The notes beneath the pieces were generated by a model. It ran no database searches. It was not told where the DNA came from and worked only from the letters and a program-made list of their open reading frames with translations. Source: Neptuniibacter pectenicola (GTDB taxonomy: Bacteria > Pseudomonadota > Gammaproteobacteria > Pseudomonadales > Balneatricaceae). Taken from it: DNA of 64,000 nt. The stretch lies in contig NZ_LUTS01000005.1 of NCBI RefSeq assembly GCF_001597735.1, positions 124,001 through 188,000 of the forward strand, given 5' to 3'. Shown here one piece after another: positions 34,154-42,966 of this stretch. The translations under genes were made by a program, and so were the position numbers. Within the stretch, counting starts at the first letter, position 1; each line of letters starts with the position of its first letter.

Positions 34154-34864
34154 ATGGGTGACAAACAACGGCTGCTGATGGTCGATGACGATACAGAGCT
34201 ATGCGAGTTGATAGGTGATTACCTAGAACACGAAGGTTATCTAATGGAGTACGCCCACAACGCGAATGAAGCGTGTGAGCAGCTTACCCGTGCGGATCGT
34301 TACGACCTGATGATTCTTGATGTCATGATGCCAGGTAAAAGCGGTTTAGAGCTGTTGCAGCAGATCCGCCCTAAGGTTCAGCTGCCTGTCATTATGCTAA
34401 CGGGTCGGGGTGAGGATATTGATCGTATTCTTGGATTAGAGATGGGGGCGGATGATTATTTAAGTAAGCCCTGTAACCCTCGCGAGTTGCTTGCACGTAT
34501 TCGGGCGGTGCTTCGACGGATCGAGCCACAGCAGCAAGAAACGCTGTTCCCTGATAATGGGATAACGGTTTGTGGCGTGAGTTTAGATCCGGGTATTCGT
34601 GAGGTGAAAGTAAATAACCATACGATTGAACTCACCGGTACTGAATTTAATGTTTTAGCGTATCTGATCGCGAATGCGGGTTCCGTGTTAGAGAAAGGTC
34701 AGTTAACTGAGCTGGTACTGCACCGTAAATTAGCAGCCTATGACCGAGCTATTGATGTGCATGTTAGCCGTGTTCGGCAGAAGTTAGCGGAGCACCTGTC
34801 GGGTAAAGAGTTGATTAAAACCGTACGTGGTGTGGGTTATCAGTTTGTTAAAGGTGATGTATGA
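34154..34864 (+). CDS. cpxR: CpxR-like envelope stress response regulator
   Basis: A 236-residue OmpR-family regulator. The receiver domain has the acidic pair (MVDDD), phospho-acceptor D56 (MILDVMMPG) and the conserved lysine (YLSKP). The C-terminal winged helix contains ELTGTEFNVLAYL and the VHVSRVRQKL recognition helix. The name rests on similarity to CpxR, the partner kinase, the divergent Spy/CpxP-like gene and the perfect CpxR box upstream. It overlaps cpxA by four bases (ATGA). Confidence 0.9.
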   Translation: MGDKQRLLMVDDDTELCELIGDYLEHEGYLMEYAHNANEACEQLTRADRYDLMILDVMMPGKSGLELLQQIRPKVQLPVIMLTGRGEDIDRILGLEMGADDYLSKPCNPRELLARIRAVLRRIEPQQQETLFPDNGITVCGVSLDPGIREVKVNNHTIELTGTEFNVLAYLIANAGSVLEKGQLTELVLHRKLAAYDRAIDVHVSRVRQKLAEHLSGKELIKTVRGVGYQFVKGDV

Positions 34865-36255
34865 AGTGGTATAACCGCCTGTTCTGGAAAATATTTGTCT
34901 CTATTTGGGCGGTTAGTTTTTTTGTGCTCCTTGCAACCATTGTGTTTGTTGGCGCCGTTACCGAACAGGATCGTTTTAAAGATGTGATTACGGCTAAATC
35001 GGAAGGCTATGCCGAGGCGATGGTGGAGAAGTATGAGCATAAAGGGTTTAAAACCTTAATCCCTAATCTGCCACGTCCACGGCCTAAACATCGGGGTGAG
35101 GATGATCATGAGCGGGGGCCGAGGCCCGGCCCGGGTCCTGGAGCAGGACCCGATCAAGATAAGCATGAAGATTTTCGTCGCGCGGTTTGGCTAAATATTT
35201 CTGAGCGGGTTTTTATTACGGATATCGAACGGCAAAAAAAGGTCATCGGCTTTAAAAACTTTAAACGGGATTCGGATTCGCTTTACGTCTTTAACTTCAC
35301 CTCTGAGAGCGGGCGTGTTTATAAGGTTGAAGTGGATTTGCATTGGGATGCTTCGCCGTTGACCCATCTTTTAGCCACGGTATTGTCCTTGCAGATGGTG
35401 TTGATTCTGCTTATCGCGTCAATCGGTGCGTTACTGGTATCGGCGATTGTCACCCGTCCGTTAAACCTATTACGCGAGCACAGCCAAGCCATCTATCGAG
35501 GCGAGTTAGATCGTCGTACGGATGAAAAACTGCGTAAACGGGGAGATGAGTTGGGTGAGCTCGCGCGGGATTTTGATCGCATGGCTGACTATGTACAGCA
35601 GACCATTACGTCCCATCAGCGCCTAATGCAGGATGTCTCCCATGAGTTACGCGCCCCACTGGCTCGCTTACAAGCCGCCGCCGGTATCGCTGAGCAACGT
35701 ATGGGTGAAGACGATAAAGCGGTTAAACGGATAATCAAAGAGTGTCAGCGGTTAGATCAATTGATTGGTGAGATTTTATCCTTGTCCCGTTTAGAGCAGA
35801 TGGATGGGCACGGCGAGAGGGTATGGTTGTATTCACTGCTACAAGAGTGGGTGGATGATGCGCACTTTACCTACCCTAAACGCCATTTCAATCTGACGAT
35901 GAAGTCCGACTGTGAAGTGAGTATTAACGTTAAACTACTAGAGCGGGCCGTTAATAATATTTTAGGCAATGCCTGTAAGCATACGGCTGAAGGTGTAGAT
36001 ATTGATTTGACGGTGGATAAAACGGACCAATGTGTTCTCTGCATAAGGGATCATGGGGCCGGGGTGTCGGACGCTGAATTGGCGCAACTGTGTAACCCTT
36101 TCTATCGTGGGCAAAGCCAAGCAAAAGGCTATGGCTTAGGGCTTAGTATCGCGCAAAGAGCGGTAGAGCGTTTAGGTGGAACCTTAACCTTACGCAACCA
36201 CCCTGATGGGGGATTGGAAGCGATTATTGGCTTGCCATGCAGCTGCCCTCCCTAG
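34861..36255 (+). CDS. cpxA: CpxA-like sensor histidine kinase
   Basis: A 464-residue inner-membrane kinase. A first helix (IFVSIWAVSFFVLLATIVFVGAV) and a second (LATVLSLQMVLILLIASIGALLVSAIV) flank a periplasmic domain. A HAMP domain follows, then HisKA with the phospho-histidine in DVSHELRAPLARL (near residue 261), and an ATPase domain with the N box (NNILGNACKHT) and G boxes (DHGAGVS; YGLGLSIAQ). The periplasmic part has an odd low-complexity stretch rich in Pro, Gly, Arg and His (about residues 75-100). It is expected to sense envelope damage, with the CpxP-like protein as an inhibitor. Confidence 0.9.
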   Translation: MKWYNRLFWKIFVSIWAVSFFVLLATIVFVGAVTEQDRFKDVITAKSEGYAEAMVEKYEHKGFKTLIPNLPRPRPKHRGEDDHERGPRPGPGPGAGPDQDKHEDFRRAVWLNISERVFITDIERQKKVIGFKNFKRDSDSLYVFNFTSESGRVYKVEVDLHWDASPLTHLLATVLSLQMVLILLIASIGALLVSAIVTRPLNLLREHSQAIYRGELDRRTDEKLRKRGDELGELARDFDRMADYVQQTITSHQRLMQDVSHELRAPLARLQAAAGIAEQRMGEDDKAVKRIIKECQRLDQLIGEILSLSRLEQMDGHGERVWLYSLLQEWVDDAHFTYPKRHFNLTMKSDCEVSINVKLLERAVNNILGNACKHTAEGVDIDLTVDKTDQCVLCIRDHGAGVSDAELAQLCNPFYRGQSQAKGYGLGLSIAQRAVERLGGTLTLRNHPDGGLEAIIGLPCSCPP

Positions 36256-36290: not shown

Positions 36291-37079
36291 TTATGGATTA
36301 ACGGCGTTTAGCGATGGGAGCTCTGCTGGGATCATATCATAAGCGGCTAAGATCGCTTTGATCTTGCCCTGTTGATGGAGCTGAATAATTCGTTGATTAA
36401 AGGCCGTGACGACCTCATAGGGAACAGCGGCTTTTGATAGGCCGATGTAGTAGATAACCTGTCCATGAAAGCCCGCAGGGCGTACCGATAAAAGCCCTAG
36501 CCTTTTTATCAGCATATTAACGACATCAATATTGCCAAAGAGTAAGTCGCATCGACCCCCATTGAGCATTTTTATGGCGGTGGTGAAGTTGGTGGTGGTT
36601 ATAATTCTGATCGGTTTGATCTGCCGAGAGGTCATCTCTTGTTGGATCGAAATAAGGTGGTTATACATATTAGACGGCGAATTTACGATCACGCATAAGC
36701 CGGCCAAACTGGGTAAGTCGGTATAGTGTGCTGGGTTGTGAGTCTGGGAGTAAAAGCCATAACCTGTTTTTAAAATGGGCGGGCTAAAATGTAACCACTC
36801 TTCTCGGGCCTCATTTTTTCCCACCATAAATAAACCCGATGCGGTACCCCGTTTGACCTCATGCTGAGCTCGTCGCCAAGGGAGTATTTCAAAATCACAG
36901 TCAAACCCTTCCTGCTTGCATGCCTCTTCTACAATGTCTTTGCCTGGGCCTGCGGCCAGCCCATCTTTTTGAAACATAAAGGGAGGCAGCTGAGTCGTTT
37001 TAAACTCAAGGGTGGCTGCATTACTGTGTATAGATAAAAACAGTAATAGGCATAAATAACCGGAAACCGATTTGATCAT
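36291..37079 (-). CDS. Periplasmic solute-binding protein, family 3 type
   Basis: A 262-residue exported protein. ATG 37079 is preferred (GAGAG upstream, clear signal peptide SGYLCLLLFLSIHSNA); the frame is open to 37115. The mature part follows the SBP_bac_3 pattern: KTTQLPPFMF, GPGKDIVEEACKQ, ILPWRRAQHEVKRG, then GRCDLLFGNIDVV and a final GKIKAILAAYD. Many such stand-alone proteins, related to amino-acid receptors, have no cognate permease. None is present here either. Ligand unknown. Confidence 0.8.
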   Translation of the reverse strand: MIKSVSGYLCLLLFLSIHSNAATLEFKTTQLPPFMFQKDGLAAGPGKDIVEEACKQEGFDCDFEILPWRRAQHEVKRGTASGLFMVGKNEAREEWLHFSPPILKTGYGFYSQTHNPAHYTDLPSLAGLCVIVNSPSNMYNHLISIQQEMTSRQIKPIRIITTTNFTTAIKMLNGGRCDLLFGNIDVVNMLIKRLGLLSVRPAGFHGQVIYYIGLSKAAVPYEVVTAFNQRIIQLHQQGKIKAILAAYDMIPAELPSLNAVNP

Positions 37080-37190
37080 AAAACTCTCAAAAAACAATAT
37101 TATTATTAGGCTCATCTAATATTGTAGCTGAGCCTTTCCGTTGTGCCTAACGATTACAAGCCATCAGCACAGTGGTCGACGCTTGTTGGG

Positions 37191-38363
37191 TTAAGATTTA
37201 TTGAGCTTAATAAAGCGGCGCATGGCGGCGCTTAGACGTTCAATACCGGCTGAGATATCCTCTGTTGGAATAATCAGCGAGGGCGTTAAACGGATCATGT
37301 TTTCCCCCGCTGTGAGTACGATAACCCCCTCCTCTAGTGCGATTTGCATAAGCTGGTACGCCTTGCCTTGATATTCGGGTAGCAATAAACAACCCATTAA
37401 CAGGCCCTGCCCTCTAAATGTTTTGAATACCGGATGGAGTTGATTCGCTCGCTCTAGCTGGTTGATAAATTCTGTATGCTTTCGCTCCACGCCATCTAAC
37501 ACACTGGATGTGTCGATAATGCTGAGAACTTTGTTCGCGATAGCGCAGGCTAAGGGGTTACCGCTATAGGGTGTTTCGGGTGTGCTGGTCTGAAGCGAGC
37601 GGGTTACGGCCTCATTACAGAGCATGGCGGCAAGGGGAAGGCCGCTGGCTAATGCGTTAGCCGACGTTAGAATGTCGGGTATCACGTTGTAGTGTTGGTA
37701 GGCGAAAAGCTTACCGGTTCGGCCCATGCCGGTTTGTATCTCATCAAAGATGAGCAGGGCTGAATAGTGATCACAGAGTGCGCGTACAGATTTTAGGTAA
37801 CTTGGGTCTGCCGACGTCAGCTCGTTCTCCTCTTGTATCGGCTCAATAACAACCGCGCAGGTGTTGTTATTAATAGCGCATTTTAGGTTATCTATATTGT
37901 TAAAGGCGACATAGGTTGTGTCTTCGGGCGTGTATTCTGTACTCGGGCTATTTTTTTTGTTTTTACAGCGGATAATTTCTGTTTTTTTAGGCCCAAAATG
38001 CTCGAGTGCGTAAGTGCGAGCCAGCTTAAATGCCGCAGCAATGGCATCGGCGCCGGAGGTGGCAAAGTGTACATGGTGGGCAAAGGTTTTTTCACACAGG
38101 GCTTTGGCGAGTTGTAGTGCCGGTTGCTGGGCCCATACATTATTGATCTGCCAGAGCGTATCTGTTTGTTGCTGGAAGGCTTGGATAAGCTGAGGGTGAC
38201 AGTAGCCTAACGTATTGATGGAGATGCCACCGGCAAAATCTATATATTCGTTATTAGCCTGATCCCAAATGTGGGAACCTTGGCCGCTGGCAGGTGTAAT
38301 CGGTAGCGGCGACCCGTTGGAATCACTCTGCTCAAAGGTTTCTCTTGGGATATTACTTTGCAT
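37191..38363 (-). CDS. ArgD-like class III aminotransferase homologue lacking the catalytic lysine
   Basis: An intact 390-residue reading frame aligned by eye with acetylornithine aminotransferase: TLGYCHPQL, ATSGADAIAAAFKLAR, VVIEPIQ, LLIFDEIQTGMGRTGKLFAY, YSGNPLACAIA, and IRLTPSL at the end. Two active-site features are gone. The Schiff-base lysine (normally TTAKALGGG) is N236 (TSANALASG), and the NAFHGRT-type cofactor loop is replaced by a shorter, unrelated stretch at about residues 131-150. D207, which binds the pyridine nitrogen, is kept. It cannot be a normal transaminase. It may be a regulatory or binding pseudoenzyme, or a gene in early decay. The neighbour is a solute-binding protein. 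Confidence 0.82.
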   Translation of the reverse strand: MQSNIPRETFEQSDSNGSPLPITPASGQGSHIWDQANNEYIDFAGGISINTLGYCHPQLIQAFQQQTDTLWQINNVWAQQPALQLAKALCEKTFAHHVHFATSGADAIAAAFKLARTYALEHFGPKKTEIIRCKNKKNSPSTEYTPEDTTYVAFNNIDNLKCAINNNTCAVVIEPIQEENELTSADPSYLKSVRALCDHYSALLIFDEIQTGMGRTGKLFAYQHYNVIPDILTSANALASGLPLAAMLCNEAVTRSLQTSTPETPYSGNPLACAIANKVLSIIDTSSVLDGVERKHTEFINQLERANQLHPVFKTFRGQGLLMGCLLLPEYQGKAYQLMQIALEEGVIVLTAGENMIRLTPSLIIPTEDISAGIERLSAAMRRFIKLNKS

Positions 38364-38503
38364 GACACAACCCCTTAACTACATTGATAGTTTCTAGTTT
38401 AGTCGATAAGGGAGGATTGCGATGTTTGTTAAGGGTTGTTATTGCTTAAATAGGTTGTGGGGCTGTTGCGACAGGGTACGCCCTTAGCGTGTAAGCCTGC
38501 TAA

Positions 38504-40627
38504 TTAATTGAGCAGGCCTTCTGCATCCGCGTCTTGCCTGATGGAGCAGGCGTTATATTCAAGACAAACACGGCAATGAAATTGGCAAGCTTTATAGTGA
38601 GCTTTGAAGGTTTCAAAATCGATCGGGCGGCTGAAAAGGAAGCCTTGCATCAAGGTGCAGTCAATATCTTGCAGAAAGCGCATCTGCTCCTTCGTTTCCA
38701 CGCCTTCGGCAACCACGCTTAAACCTAGCTGCTTAGCCATGGCAATAATGGTTGATGTGATTGCAATATTATCTTTGTCTTTAGGGATGTCGTGTAAGAA
38801 AGAGCGGTCAACTTTAAGGAGGTCAACGGGCATTTTTTTCAAATGACTTAATGATGAGTACCCAGTCCCAAAGTCATCAATCGCTAAGCTTATACCCATC
38901 ATCTTAATTCTGTTAAGTGTATCGATAGCATACTGCATATCCCGCATGAGCATGCTTTCGGTAATCTCTAGCTCCAACCAATGAGGCGCTAAGCCTGAGG
39001 TCGCGAGCGCCTCTTTAATATGTTCGATAAGGTCAGGATCATCAAACTGTCGAGCGGATAGGTTTACGCACACTTTTAAGTGGGGCAAACCTTCGGCTTG
39101 TAGCTGTTTTGCCGCGTTGCAGGCTTTGAGTAATACCCAGCGACCAATGGGAATGATCGCCCCCGTTTCTTCAGCGTAGGGAATGAAATCGTCTGGGGGG
39201 ATCGCGCCCCGTGTCGGGTGCTGCCAACGCAGTAACGCTTCGATGGCAGAGATACGACCGTCTTGAGCATTTACTTGGGGTTGGTAGGCTAAGGATAATT
39301 GGTTACTTGCGAGCGCGTTTCTTAAATCGTGTTCGATGCTGAGTATGTGTTGCGCTTTTTCATCCATATAGGTTTCATAAAACGCGAAGGTATTTCGTCC
39401 TAGCTGCTTAGCGTGATACATCGCCAAATCGGCATTACGTAAAAGGTCACTGGCATCTTGGCTATCGACCCCAATCAGGGTTATGCCGATACTGACTGTG
39501 ATTCGGACGTCATGAAAGCCTATCTGCACGGGTTGCGCGAGTAAGGTTAGCAACTCATTGACGCTGTTTATGATGGCGTCACGCTCATGGAGGTCTTGGA
39601 AAATGATGGTAAATTCATCGCCGCCGAGCCTAAAGACCGAGGCGTTGTCCGAGACGCAATAACAAAGCCGATTCGCAATGGTATTAAGCAAGGCATCACC
39701 AGCCTCATGGCCCATCGTGTCATTGATCTGCTTAAAGTGGTCTAAGTCTAATAACAGCAGTGTATGAGGCCCAGTATGGGACGGTGAATGTAGGTACTGG
39801 TCTAAGGTGCGTCTAAAGTTTCGGCGATTACCCAAATCAGTGAGTGGGTCATAATAAGCCATCTTCTCTAGTTGCTGATCATGTGCTTTTATTTGGGATA
39901 TATCCTCACTAACGGAGACAAAATTAGTGATATTGCCCAGTTCGTCATGTATCGGAGATATATTTTGTAACGACCAGTAGGTGCTGCCATCTTTTCTTTT
40001 GTTGAGTAGGGTGCCATGCCATTTCTTCTGATGGCGAATGGTGTTCCATAGCTCAGTGTAGGTCGCTTCGGGGGTCATGTTAGAGCGTAATAAACGTGTG
40101 CTTTTCCCTTTTATCTCACTGAGGTTATAGCCTGTCATATCGCTGAAACGGGTGTTGGCGTACTCGATCTCGCCGTTAGCGTTAGTGATAACGACGGCGC
40201 TTCCTGTATTTTCCACCGCGTTTTTGAAAAGCTTTAGCTTTCTCGCTAGGTGCGCGTTCTTACTGGCATTGCGGAGCGTGATAAAGAACAACCCTTGTTC
40301 CATGGCATCGGGGTGCACAATAGAGCACTCAATTTTGAGCAACATGGAGGGTTGATCGGGCTGTTCTAGTTGCATGTATGTAGCGTGTTGGTGACTACTG
40401 TCTTGTGTAAGGGGTTCGAGGTGCGGGCGTAATGCCTGAACAAAGTCTTGGGGTAAGCCATCTGATTTATCAGCTTGTATACGCTCCCAGATCAATTCGG
40501 CGGCACAAGGGTTGTTGGCAACGCATTGGAGAGTTGAATCTAACAACAATACACCGACGCTCGATTGGCTAAACCAATCGATGAGCATGTTGATGTGACG
40601 TTCAGCAGACTGTGTATTTTTTTGCAT
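38504..40627 (-). CDS. PAS-GGDEF-EAL cyclic-di-GMP protein
   Basis: A 707-residue cytosolic protein with no membrane helix. A first PAS-like region (residues 10-120) is followed by a good PAS domain (FKNAVENTGSAVVITNANGE through NFVSVSEDISQI). The GGDEF domain has an intact RLGGDEF motif; the EAL domain has AIEALLRWQHP, ELEITES, DDFGTGYSS and VVAEGVET. Both catalytic domains look competent, so it may make and break c-di-GMP under PAS control. The C-terminal tail after the EAL domain holds three cysteines near the end (CQFHCRVCLEYNAC), possibly a metal or redox site. Confidence 0.93.
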   Translation of the reverse strand: MQKNTQSAERHINMLIDWFSQSSVGVLLLDSTLQCVANNPCAAELIWERIQADKSDGLPQDFVQALRPHLEPLTQDSSHQHATYMQLEQPDQPSMLLKIECSIVHPDAMEQGLFFITLRNASKNAHLARKLKLFKNAVENTGSAVVITNANGEIEYANTRFSDMTGYNLSEIKGKSTRLLRSNMTPEATYTELWNTIRHQKKWHGTLLNKRKDGSTYWSLQNISPIHDELGNITNFVSVSEDISQIKAHDQQLEKMAYYDPLTDLGNRRNFRRTLDQYLHSPSHTGPHTLLLLDLDHFKQINDTMGHEAGDALLNTIANRLCYCVSDNASVFRLGGDEFTIIFQDLHERDAIINSVNELLTLLAQPVQIGFHDVRITVSIGITLIGVDSQDASDLLRNADLAMYHAKQLGRNTFAFYETYMDEKAQHILSIEHDLRNALASNQLSLAYQPQVNAQDGRISAIEALLRWQHPTRGAIPPDDFIPYAEETGAIIPIGRWVLLKACNAAKQLQAEGLPHLKVCVNLSARQFDDPDLIEHIKEALATSGLAPHWLELEITESMLMRDMQYAIDTLNRIKMMGISLAIDDFGTGYSSLSHLKKMPVDLLKVDRSFLHDIPKDKDNIAITSTIIAMAKQLGLSVVAEGVETKEQMRFLQDIDCTLMQGFLFSRPIDFETFKAHYKACQFHCRVCLEYNACSIRQDADAEGLLN

Positions 40628-40757: not shown

Positions 40758-41138
<381 letters not shown>

Positions 41139-41251
41139 TCAACACTCAGCAGTTTTAACTACAGTGAAGTATGGGCATAAGTATACCTAGAAAAATACAG
41201 AGTGGTATATCAGATTTAGTGAAGGGAGAGGAAAAGTGATTGTTAATAAAA

Positions 41252-41282
41252 CAAAAAAAGGGTGCCGAAGCACCCTTTTTCA
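41252..41282 (-). terminator. Terminator after amtB (minus strand)
   Basis: AAAAAAGGGTGC, short loop, GCACCCTTTTTT, with U-tracts in both directions, immediately beyond the amtB stop. Confidence 0.9.
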
Positions 41283-41294
41283 ATCTACTAGAGA

Positions 41295-42551
41295 TTATTT
41301 AGCAGATGTGAACTCTGGGTATGCTTCCATACCGCATTCAGAGATATCAACACCTTCATATTCTTCTTCTTCAGTTACACGTACACCGATCACTGCTTTG
41401 ATTATAAACCAAGTAACCAAGCTTGTTCCGAATACCCATCCGAAGATAGTTAGTGCACCAATGATCTGACCAGAGAAGGCAGCGCCATCGTTTGTTAATG
41501 GTACAAGTAGCAGACCAAGAAGACCTACAACACCGTGTACAGAGATCGCACCGACTGGATCATCAATTTTCATCTTATCAAGCGTCAGGATGCTGAAGAC
41601 TACTAATACACCACCGATCGCACCAAACAATGTAGCTTGAAGTGCAGACGGGGTTGATGGTTCAGCTGTGATAGCAACTAGACCGGCTAGCGCACCGTTA
41701 AGTGCCATTGTTAGATCCGCTTTACCAAACAGTAGGCGAGCAACAATCAGCGCAGCAACAACACCACCGGCAGCAGCGGCGTTAGTGTTCATGAACACAA
41801 CCGCAACAGCATTTGAGTTAGCAACGTCGGACGTAGCAAGTACAGAACCACCGTTGAAACCGAACCAACCTAACCACAAGATGAATGTACCTAGTGTCGC
41901 TAGCGGTAGGTTTGCACCAGGGATGGCGTTAACGCCACCTTCTTTAGTGTATTTACCTTTACGAGCGCCAAGAACAAGTACACCAGCAAGGGCTGCAGCA
42001 GCACCGGCCATGTGAACGATACCCGAACCTGCGAAGTCAGAGAAACCTAGATCGCCAAGTGTGTACATGCCGAATACAGCATTGCCACCCCACGTCCAAG
42101 AACCTTCCATTGGGTAGATGAAGCCAGTCATTACGATAGCAAAAGCAAGGAAAGCCCAAAGCTTCATACGCTCAGCAACGGCACCCGAAACGATAGACAT
42201 TGCAGTCGCTACGAATACTACCTGGAAGAAGAAGTCAGCTGATGGTGCATAAGTAGCAGGTTCTTCTGCGCCAGTGAAACCATCACCAGTAATGCCAGAA
42301 AGTAGGTATTCACCACCGTACATGATTGCGTAACCGCAAACTAAGTACATGATGCATGACACCGCGTATAACGCGACGTTTTTAGTTAGGATTTCAGTGG
42401 TGTTCTTAGCGCGAACTAGACCAGACTCAAGCATGGCAAAGCCAGCAGCCATCCACATTACTAATGCGCCACATACTAAGAAGTAAAAAGTATCGAGGGC
42501 ATATTTCAGCTGAGTAACATCAGCAGCTGTTGTATTTAAAAGTTCTTCCAT
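41295..42551 (-). CDS. amtB: Ammonium transporter AmtB
   Basis: A 418-residue trimeric ammonium channel of the inner membrane, gated by PII (GlnK). The start at 42551 is chosen from the GGAGGA eight bases upstream; the frame is open to 42614, overlapping glnK. About 11 hydrophobic helices are present, with the twin histidines of the pore (GSGIVHMAG and SVHGVVG) and FNGGSVLA. There is no obvious cleaved signal: the first helix follows a short acidic N-terminus. The long helix-linking loops carry extra alanine-rich inserts. It lies 37 bp after glnK and is probably co-transcribed with it. Confidence 0.95.
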   Translation of the reverse strand: MEELLNTTAADVTQLKYALDTFYFLVCGALVMWMAAGFAMLESGLVRAKNTTEILTKNVALYAVSCIMYLVCGYAIMYGGEYLLSGITGDGFTGAEEPATYAPSADFFFQVVFVATAMSIVSGAVAERMKLWAFLAFAIVMTGFIYPMEGSWTWGGNAVFGMYTLGDLGFSDFAGSGIVHMAGAAAALAGVLVLGARKGKYTKEGGVNAIPGANLPLATLGTFILWLGWFGFNGGSVLATSDVANSNAVAVVFMNTNAAAAGGVVAALIVARLLFGKADLTMALNGALAGLVAITAEPSTPSALQATLFGAIGGVLVVFSILTLDKMKIDDPVGAISVHGVVGLLGLLLVPLTNDGAAFSGQIIGALTIFGWVFGTSLVTWFIIKAVIGVRVTEEEEYEGVDISECGMEAYPEFTSAK

Positions 42552-42588
42552 TGGTTGGTTCCTCCAGAAGCAATCAGTAAGTCTATAT

Positions 42589-42966
<378 letters not shown>

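Follow-up and report, generated by a model that had tools for sequence, protein, structure and literature searches.

We report a gene in the window, the 64,000-nucleotide stretch of the Neptuniibacter pectenicola genome analysed here, whose predicted product descends from the succinylornithine transaminase AstC, has lost residues central to PLP chemistry and, on balance, has probably been retained as a pseudoenzyme with a non-catalytic function. The features on which this reading is built, together with those of a second lysine-less copy in the genome G105, are collected in Table 1.

Table 1. Features discussed in the text (positions refer to the window unless a locus handle precedes them).
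Feature	Position	Strand	Basis or remark
AstC-derived pseudo-transaminase (P0001), 390 aa	37191..38363	-	intact ORF, PF00202, AstC models, trees
Codon 236, Asn (AAC), at the Schiff-base lysine position (E. coli AstC Lys252)	37656..37658	-	alignments, ORF start
Junction (codons 136/137) of the 15-codon in-frame deletion	37953..37958	-	alignments
C-terminal part (codons 284-390), zero invariants lost	37194..37514	-	alignment, amino acid branch lengths
Shine-Dalgarno-like AAGGGG, 7 nt 5' of the ATG	38371..38376	-	by eye; AAGGAGG similarly placed in G010, G004
-10-like TAAACT, also 5' of functional astC genes	38396..38401	-	by eye
PAS-GGDEF-EAL gene, syntenic neighbour 5' of astC	38504..40627	-	synteny
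SBP_bac_3 periplasmic binding protein gene	36291..37115	-	occupies the position of the rest of the ast operon in G010, G004
Histidine kinase, right-hand syntenic flank of the AST locus	34861..36255	+	synteny
Response regulator, right-hand syntenic flank	34154..34864	+	synteny
G105 AstC* (P0002), 400 aa	L241:8148-9350	-	family search, lysine position read
G105 AstD-like gene, 455 codons open, 3' of the Lys-less AstC	L241:6739-8106	-	astD comparison

An AstC orthologue with an eroded active site

The minus-strand frame runs from an ATG through 390 codons without a stop, as an earlier sequence-only reading of this DNA had stated, and its product matches Pfam Aminotran_3 (PF00202) with 315.5 bits against a cut-off of 30.5, which makes it a class III aminotransferase by descent; no other domain was found in the Pfam search. 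The same reading had called the protein ArgD-like, a label we replace, since the closest family is AstC and not the biosynthetic ArgD. The best models are PRK05093 (456.7 bits) and TIGR03246 (455.1 bits), with 336 bits for the argD model TIGR00707, and separate argD-like genes (L002 and L003) are present in the same genome. The curated cut-offs of all three models (522, 609.95 and 410.05 bits, respectively) are missed by the window protein, while the astC orthologue of the related genome G010 exceeds each of them. In trees of astC the gene is placed with that of G004 (support of 61 in one tree and 76 in another), and judged by models and trees it is an AstC orthologue. The -10-like hexamer in front of it is found by eye in identical form 5' of astC in seven of the eight other species, G007 having TACACT.

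Residue 236, within 'PDILTSANALASG', is Asn, a position taken by the Schiff-base lysine in E. coli AstC and Salmonella ArgD, and a 15-codon in-frame deletion takes out FHGRT...GGQ, including Phe138 and Arg141 of E. coli AstC, whose numbering is used from here on; the loss of the lysine and of the FHGRT loop, both proposed earlier, is thus confirmed by the alignments. There is one further gap, of a single codon near the N-terminus. Comparison with 16 functional orthologues defines 149 invariant columns, of which 45 are gone in total, 34 by substitution and 11 by deletion; each of the 16, for its part, retains 96-100% of those that are invariant among the remaining 15. The statement that most other conserved blocks remain is thus correct only in part, 104 columns being kept. 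Besides Phe138, Arg141 and Lys252, the losses include Tyr18, now Gly, Thr281, now Pro265, and the conserved glycines beside Glu195, while Asp223, Gln226, Glu195, Gly105 and Ala106 are still present in the cofactor pocket.

PMC3590144 describes AstC as a functional dimer whose interface holds the PLP, with Lys252 making the aldimine, Arg141 salt-bridging the substrate, Thr281 reaching over from the adjacent protomer to contact the phosphate of PLP, and Tyr18 and Phe138 shifting upon substrate binding. According to the same paper, the apo-AstC model apparently starts at residue 21 and one apo-protomer has no density for two loops, printed as His142-Ala163 and Val274-Gly283 (the histidine printed as His142 being residue 139 in our numbering). 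In these segments (1-20, 142-163 and 274-283) 17 of 22 invariants are lost from the window protein, compared with 25 of 115 elsewhere (Fisher P = 1e-6; the 137 invariants were defined over 21 references). The window protein looks like a permanent apo-form, and, judging from its residues, transaminase catalysis has almost certainly gone from it. Orthology to an enzyme family combined with the loss of Lys252, of Arg141 and Phe138 and of the threonine that binds the PLP phosphate bears out the earlier term pseudoenzyme; the new role suggested along with it gains only indirect support, from the intact frame, the distribution of losses at the C-terminus and the parallel case in G105 described below.

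An AlphaFold2 model of the protein has a mean pLDDT of 88.6 and matches best S. typhimurium ArgD (4jev, TM 0.94) and E. coli AstC (4adb, TM 0.93), although the model may echo functional relatives, since its alignment consists almost wholly of them. The stretches below 50 (residues 1-3, 14-18, 137-144 and 260-265) fall in or beside the N-terminus and the damaged loops, and the model is weakest around the pocket.

The locus and the AST pathway across the genus

Eight of the ten other Neptuniibacter genomes carry an astC orthologue, 49-59% identical to the window gene and in every case with the lysine and FHGRT; G003 and G008, the two nearest sisters, gave weaker matches only. Search coordinates give the gene order astC, astA, astD, astB on a single contig in G001, G002, G004, G006, G009 and G010, and show the ast genes of G005 and G007 split over contigs. 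As in the window, a PAS-GGDEF-EAL gene lies 5' of astC in six of the eight Lys-bearing members. For G010 and G004, the two Lys-bearing members of the genus for which all flanks were drawn (the others were taken from search coordinates), the order is AmtB, EAL gene, astC, M20 hydrolase, HGLS-like gene, astA, astD, astB, histidine kinase and response regulator. In the window, nothing lies between the EAL flank and the kinase/regulator flank except the dead astC and the periplasmic binding protein gene, which within the genus has close homologues (61%) only in G003 and G008. In these two sisters the same flanks enclose the binding protein gene alone, with its match starting 177 and 174 bases, respectively, after the EAL match.

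Neither astA nor astB was matched at E <= 0.001 in the window genome (G000), G003 or G008, nor was astD at E <= 1e-130, while all three were found in the other eight of the 11 genomes; the broader AOST model likewise gave no match in the window genome. The operon context of an AstC, searched for as astA, astB and astD, is hence not found around or apart from the window gene. Since the three genomes share the flanks, the absence of ast genes and a branch with 100% support in a tree of the EAL gene (nine genomes), the simplest account is that a common ancestor of the window species, G003 and G008 lost the AST pathway, with astC surviving in one line and being deleted in the other.

The sequence-only reading had held that close relatives with the lysine, this copy alone being mutated, would speak for simple decay or a sequencing error. 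Within the genus this is literally the case (eight of eight with Lys), but the observation does not discriminate, since the two nearest sisters are without the gene and the changes resemble neither a single hit nor uniform decay.

Some further observations on the locus may be recorded. AST operons of this family have an HGLS-like gene (PF07063) and an M20 hydrolase gene placed between astC and astA, as at L156:11545-12348 and at the corresponding place in L158 and L243-L245. AstB (TIGR03241) was found in eight of the 11 genomes of the genus, only that of G007 reaching the curated cut-off. At 40758-42957 the window holds two small ORFs, which we take to be PII-like, flanking a transporter-like gene that is presumably an AmtB-like ammonium transporter. 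In G008 (L166:12822-14203) two consecutive LTXXQ-like matches are seen; G003 has one, but its contig ends soon after.

Constraint on the window gene and a second lysine-less copy

The loss of invariants is unevenly distributed along the protein. Beyond residue 283 (G010 numbering) all 27 invariants are kept; with a cut at residue 300, which was picked after the alignment had been viewed, none of 20 C-terminal invariants but 34 of the 118 others are lost (Fisher P = 0.004), a pattern that the G105 gene repeats. The amino acid branch of the window gene measures 0.70 in the N-terminal part (G004/G010 mean 0.18) and 0.49 in the C-terminal part (0.33), so that relative to its neighbours it is lengthened 1.5-fold in the latter and 3.9-fold in the rest. 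Compared with G004, second-position mismatch is raised in the N-terminal part (0.208, four functional pairs giving 0.127-0.130) and ordinary in the C-terminal part (0.189, against 0.171-0.210), while compared with G010 it is raised in both (0.247 and 0.255, respectively). The branch as a whole is long in the astC tree (0.62, with 0.22 for G004), as it would be under relaxed constraint.

Simulated neutral evolution to 34 lost invariants introduced 5.4-6.7 stops on average, under a simple model with uniform mutation and no indels that started from the G004 gene, that of a living relative. The probability of finding no stop was 0.002-0.007, that of finding no C-terminal loss 0.003-0.004, and both together were obtained in none of 4000 runs at each of three kappas. 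These simulations disfavour the very recent loss of function that had been offered as an alternative to a new role, since the active site is altered too far for a short neutral phase without stops. The frame is open, the gaps are in frame and the loss is uneven, in place of the stops, frameshifts or uniform loss of constraint of a pseudogene. An eroded active site combined with untouched C-terminal invariants and an open frame would most simply be accounted for by selection on a folded protein. The ratio dN/dS, proposed earlier as a check, gave no usable value: with synonymous sites saturated and dS and branch lengths at the bound, the omega of about 0.004-0.005 was discarded, and a two-ratio model brought no improvement over a single ratio (lnL -8983.95 and -8984.77). 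An omega of 1 on the window branch was rejected (lnL -8999.98), yet this branch spans the functional past of the enzyme.

A second lysine-less copy was found in G105, from another genus of the family. Its AstC* has Asn at the lysine position, SHGHT in place of FHGRT and an intact frame, lies between an EAL gene and a kinase with matching EAL, kinase and regulator flanks, and groups in the tree with other genera, away from the window gene (nearby support 43 and 88). Here 35 of 137 invariants are lost, none of them among the 19 C-terminal ones, with 12 of 22 lost in the segments that PMC3590144 describes as disordered or unmodelled in apo-AstC and 23 of 115 elsewhere (P = 0.002). Neutral runs remained free of stops in 1.2-1.5% and free of C-terminal loss in 0.4-0.5% of cases. 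The two copies share 22 lost positions, with 10.7 expected (P = 4e-6), which may simply be those that matter only for catalysis. In contrast to the window gene, AstC* keeps Thr281, and a degenerate AstD-like gene adjoins it, in which 74 of 184 invariants are substituted and 15 missing (the comparison included L157 and L159-L161; AstD frames were delimited by stops at both ends and so include a few codons before the start). Neutral runs for this gene gave about 13 stops on average and no stop-free case among 2000 per setting. By eye, its presumed catalytic Glu and Asn motifs are changed while the presumed Cys motif stays. Judged by sequence, the AstD-like protein is probably another pseudoenzyme from this eroded operon. 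As five AstA-family matches and a Lys-bearing AstC occur elsewhere in G105, the old AstC copy there looks redundant and the pathway not lost.

A tie between dead AstC and the EAL gene was considered and found to be unsupported: both lysine-less copies have the EAL gene upstream, but so do the six Lys-bearing astC genes of the genus and that of G045 (L136), and the EAL gene persists in G003 and G008 although astC is absent there.

Lysine-less copies appear to be rare. Of 102 AstC-like matches (E <= 1e-60) in 116 genomes of the family, 100 have the lysine, the exceptions being the window gene and that of G105. In 390 genomes of the order, an even subsample of a larger group with G105 apparently not among them, the AstC model listed 22 matches of 405-582 bits besides the window gene; no further lysine-less copy was seen among the 20 of these that were read (all but G292 and G222), every one of which has Lys and FHG. 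Of the matches above 600 bits, a few had been read in the family survey. The best 80 of 580 relatives in a contig search all have the lysine, several of them being the same genomes as in the family set. Four other AstC-like copies are possibly broken (L240, G098:C15:10780-11490; L268, G151:C1; G046:C175; G088:C8): two are partial matches, both with Lys, and two have one in-frame stop. A literature search of open-licence papers returned no title naming a lysine-less AstC or ArgD pseudoenzyme, and PLP and transaminase terms, looked for in PMC10211241, were not found there.

Competing explanations and proposed model

The main rival to a retained function is slow decay, a dying astC drifting without function under relaxed constraint after the loss of the pathway, which by luck has met neither stop nor frameshift so far. 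We consider this possible but rather doubtful. It is in keeping with the AST genes not being found in the window genome or the two sisters, with these sisters having dispensed with the gene altogether, which counts against a retained function, and with the acceleration of the window branch, its C-terminal part included (1.5-fold, with the raised mismatch to G010). The gaps, all of them in frame, speak against it, and so do the absence of stops and the C-terminal preservation, each improbable in the neutral runs and never met jointly there, as well as the ordinary C-terminal second-position divergence from G004, the -10-like and Shine-Dalgarno-like elements and the second case in G105. A sequencing or assembly error, to which the single genome of the species might lend some weight, is rejected as extremely improbable, since 34 substituted invariants and in-frame gaps within an open frame on a 285-kb contig exceed, in number and kind, what a few errors would produce.

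The sugar dehydratase ColD, of the same fold and with His for Lys, is a precedent for lysine-free chemistry, and the residues remaining in the cofactor pocket (Asp223, Gln226, Glu195, Gly105 and Ala106) would suit a new enzyme whose pocket was rebuilt for such chemistry, perhaps with another cofactor or none. With the Phe138/Arg141 loop deleted, Thr281 replaced by Pro and Tyr18 by Gly, the model weakest near the pocket and a single sequence defining no new conserved motif, we regard this as unlikely. LCB1 (SPTLC1) of serine palmitoyltransferase belongs to a different aminotransferase subgroup and is, like the window protein, a PLP-fold protein without the cofactor lysine. PMC3794620 credits it with important roles despite the missing lysine and with a known partner, LCB2, whereas the window protein has candidate partners only. 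By analogy, the window protein might be the inactive subunit of a mixed dimer, tuning the ArgD-like L002 or L003 as LCB1 does LCB2; this is a specific form of the retained function, counted within it, and we think it improbable, if a little less so than the new enzyme. AstC is dimeric with PLP at the interface according to PMC3590144, and two argD-like genes remain in the window genome, but these candidate partners are only about 30-34% identical, and damage also extends to the loop with Thr281, on which the active site of a partner would depend. Known systems otherwise offer partial parallels. With E. coli AstC (4ADB; TIGR03246) and the interchangeable ArgD the window protein shares orthologous descent, the fold (TM 0.93) and Asp223, Gln226 and Glu195, and with the astC of six genus members its EAL neighbour; it differs from them in the missing Lys252, Phe138, Arg141, Thr281 and Tyr18, the 15-codon deletion, scores below the cut-offs and the missing AST operon. 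MocR/GabR proteins put the aminotransferase fold to regulatory use (PMC6522883) but are PLP-dependent and carry a DNA-binding domain, unlike the window protein with its single Pfam domain.

We propose a model for the retained, non-catalytic pseudoenzyme in which the ancestral astC, first gene of the AST operon, outlasted the loss of the pathway in the ancestor of the window species and its two sisters. The window lineage would then have lost PLP chemistry, with the lysine, the Phe138/Arg141 loop, Tyr18, the cross-dimer Thr281 and the glycines beside Glu195 disappearing, while the fold, the C-terminal part, the -10-like element and the ribosome-binding site were retained. The protein would most likely be non-catalytic, probably free of PLP and similar to apo-AstC, and would exert its effect through a protein partner, as a homodimer or paired with a surviving class III aminotransferase. 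We infer that the gene is expressed and that selection acts on this non-catalytic function; which partner is bound, and with what effect, is a matter of conjecture.

A broader proposal, which we advance tentatively and hold to be less probable than its opposite, is that break-up of the AST operon at the AmtB-EAL-HK-RR locus can leave dead AstC behind as a recurrent, selected PLP-free scaffold or regulator, accompanied in G105 by a dead AstD. Such a class III transaminase pseudoenzyme would have at least two origins, the loops disordered in the apo-form being dispensed with and the C-terminal part serving as the working surface. If true, selection would maintain a function of a metabolic transaminase even though both the pathway and the cofactor chemistry have vanished, and would do so repeatedly at one locus. 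A non-catalytic role of AstC would moreover be directly testable in this genus, where the window species has the protein only, two sisters have none and eight relatives have a Lys-bearing AstC.
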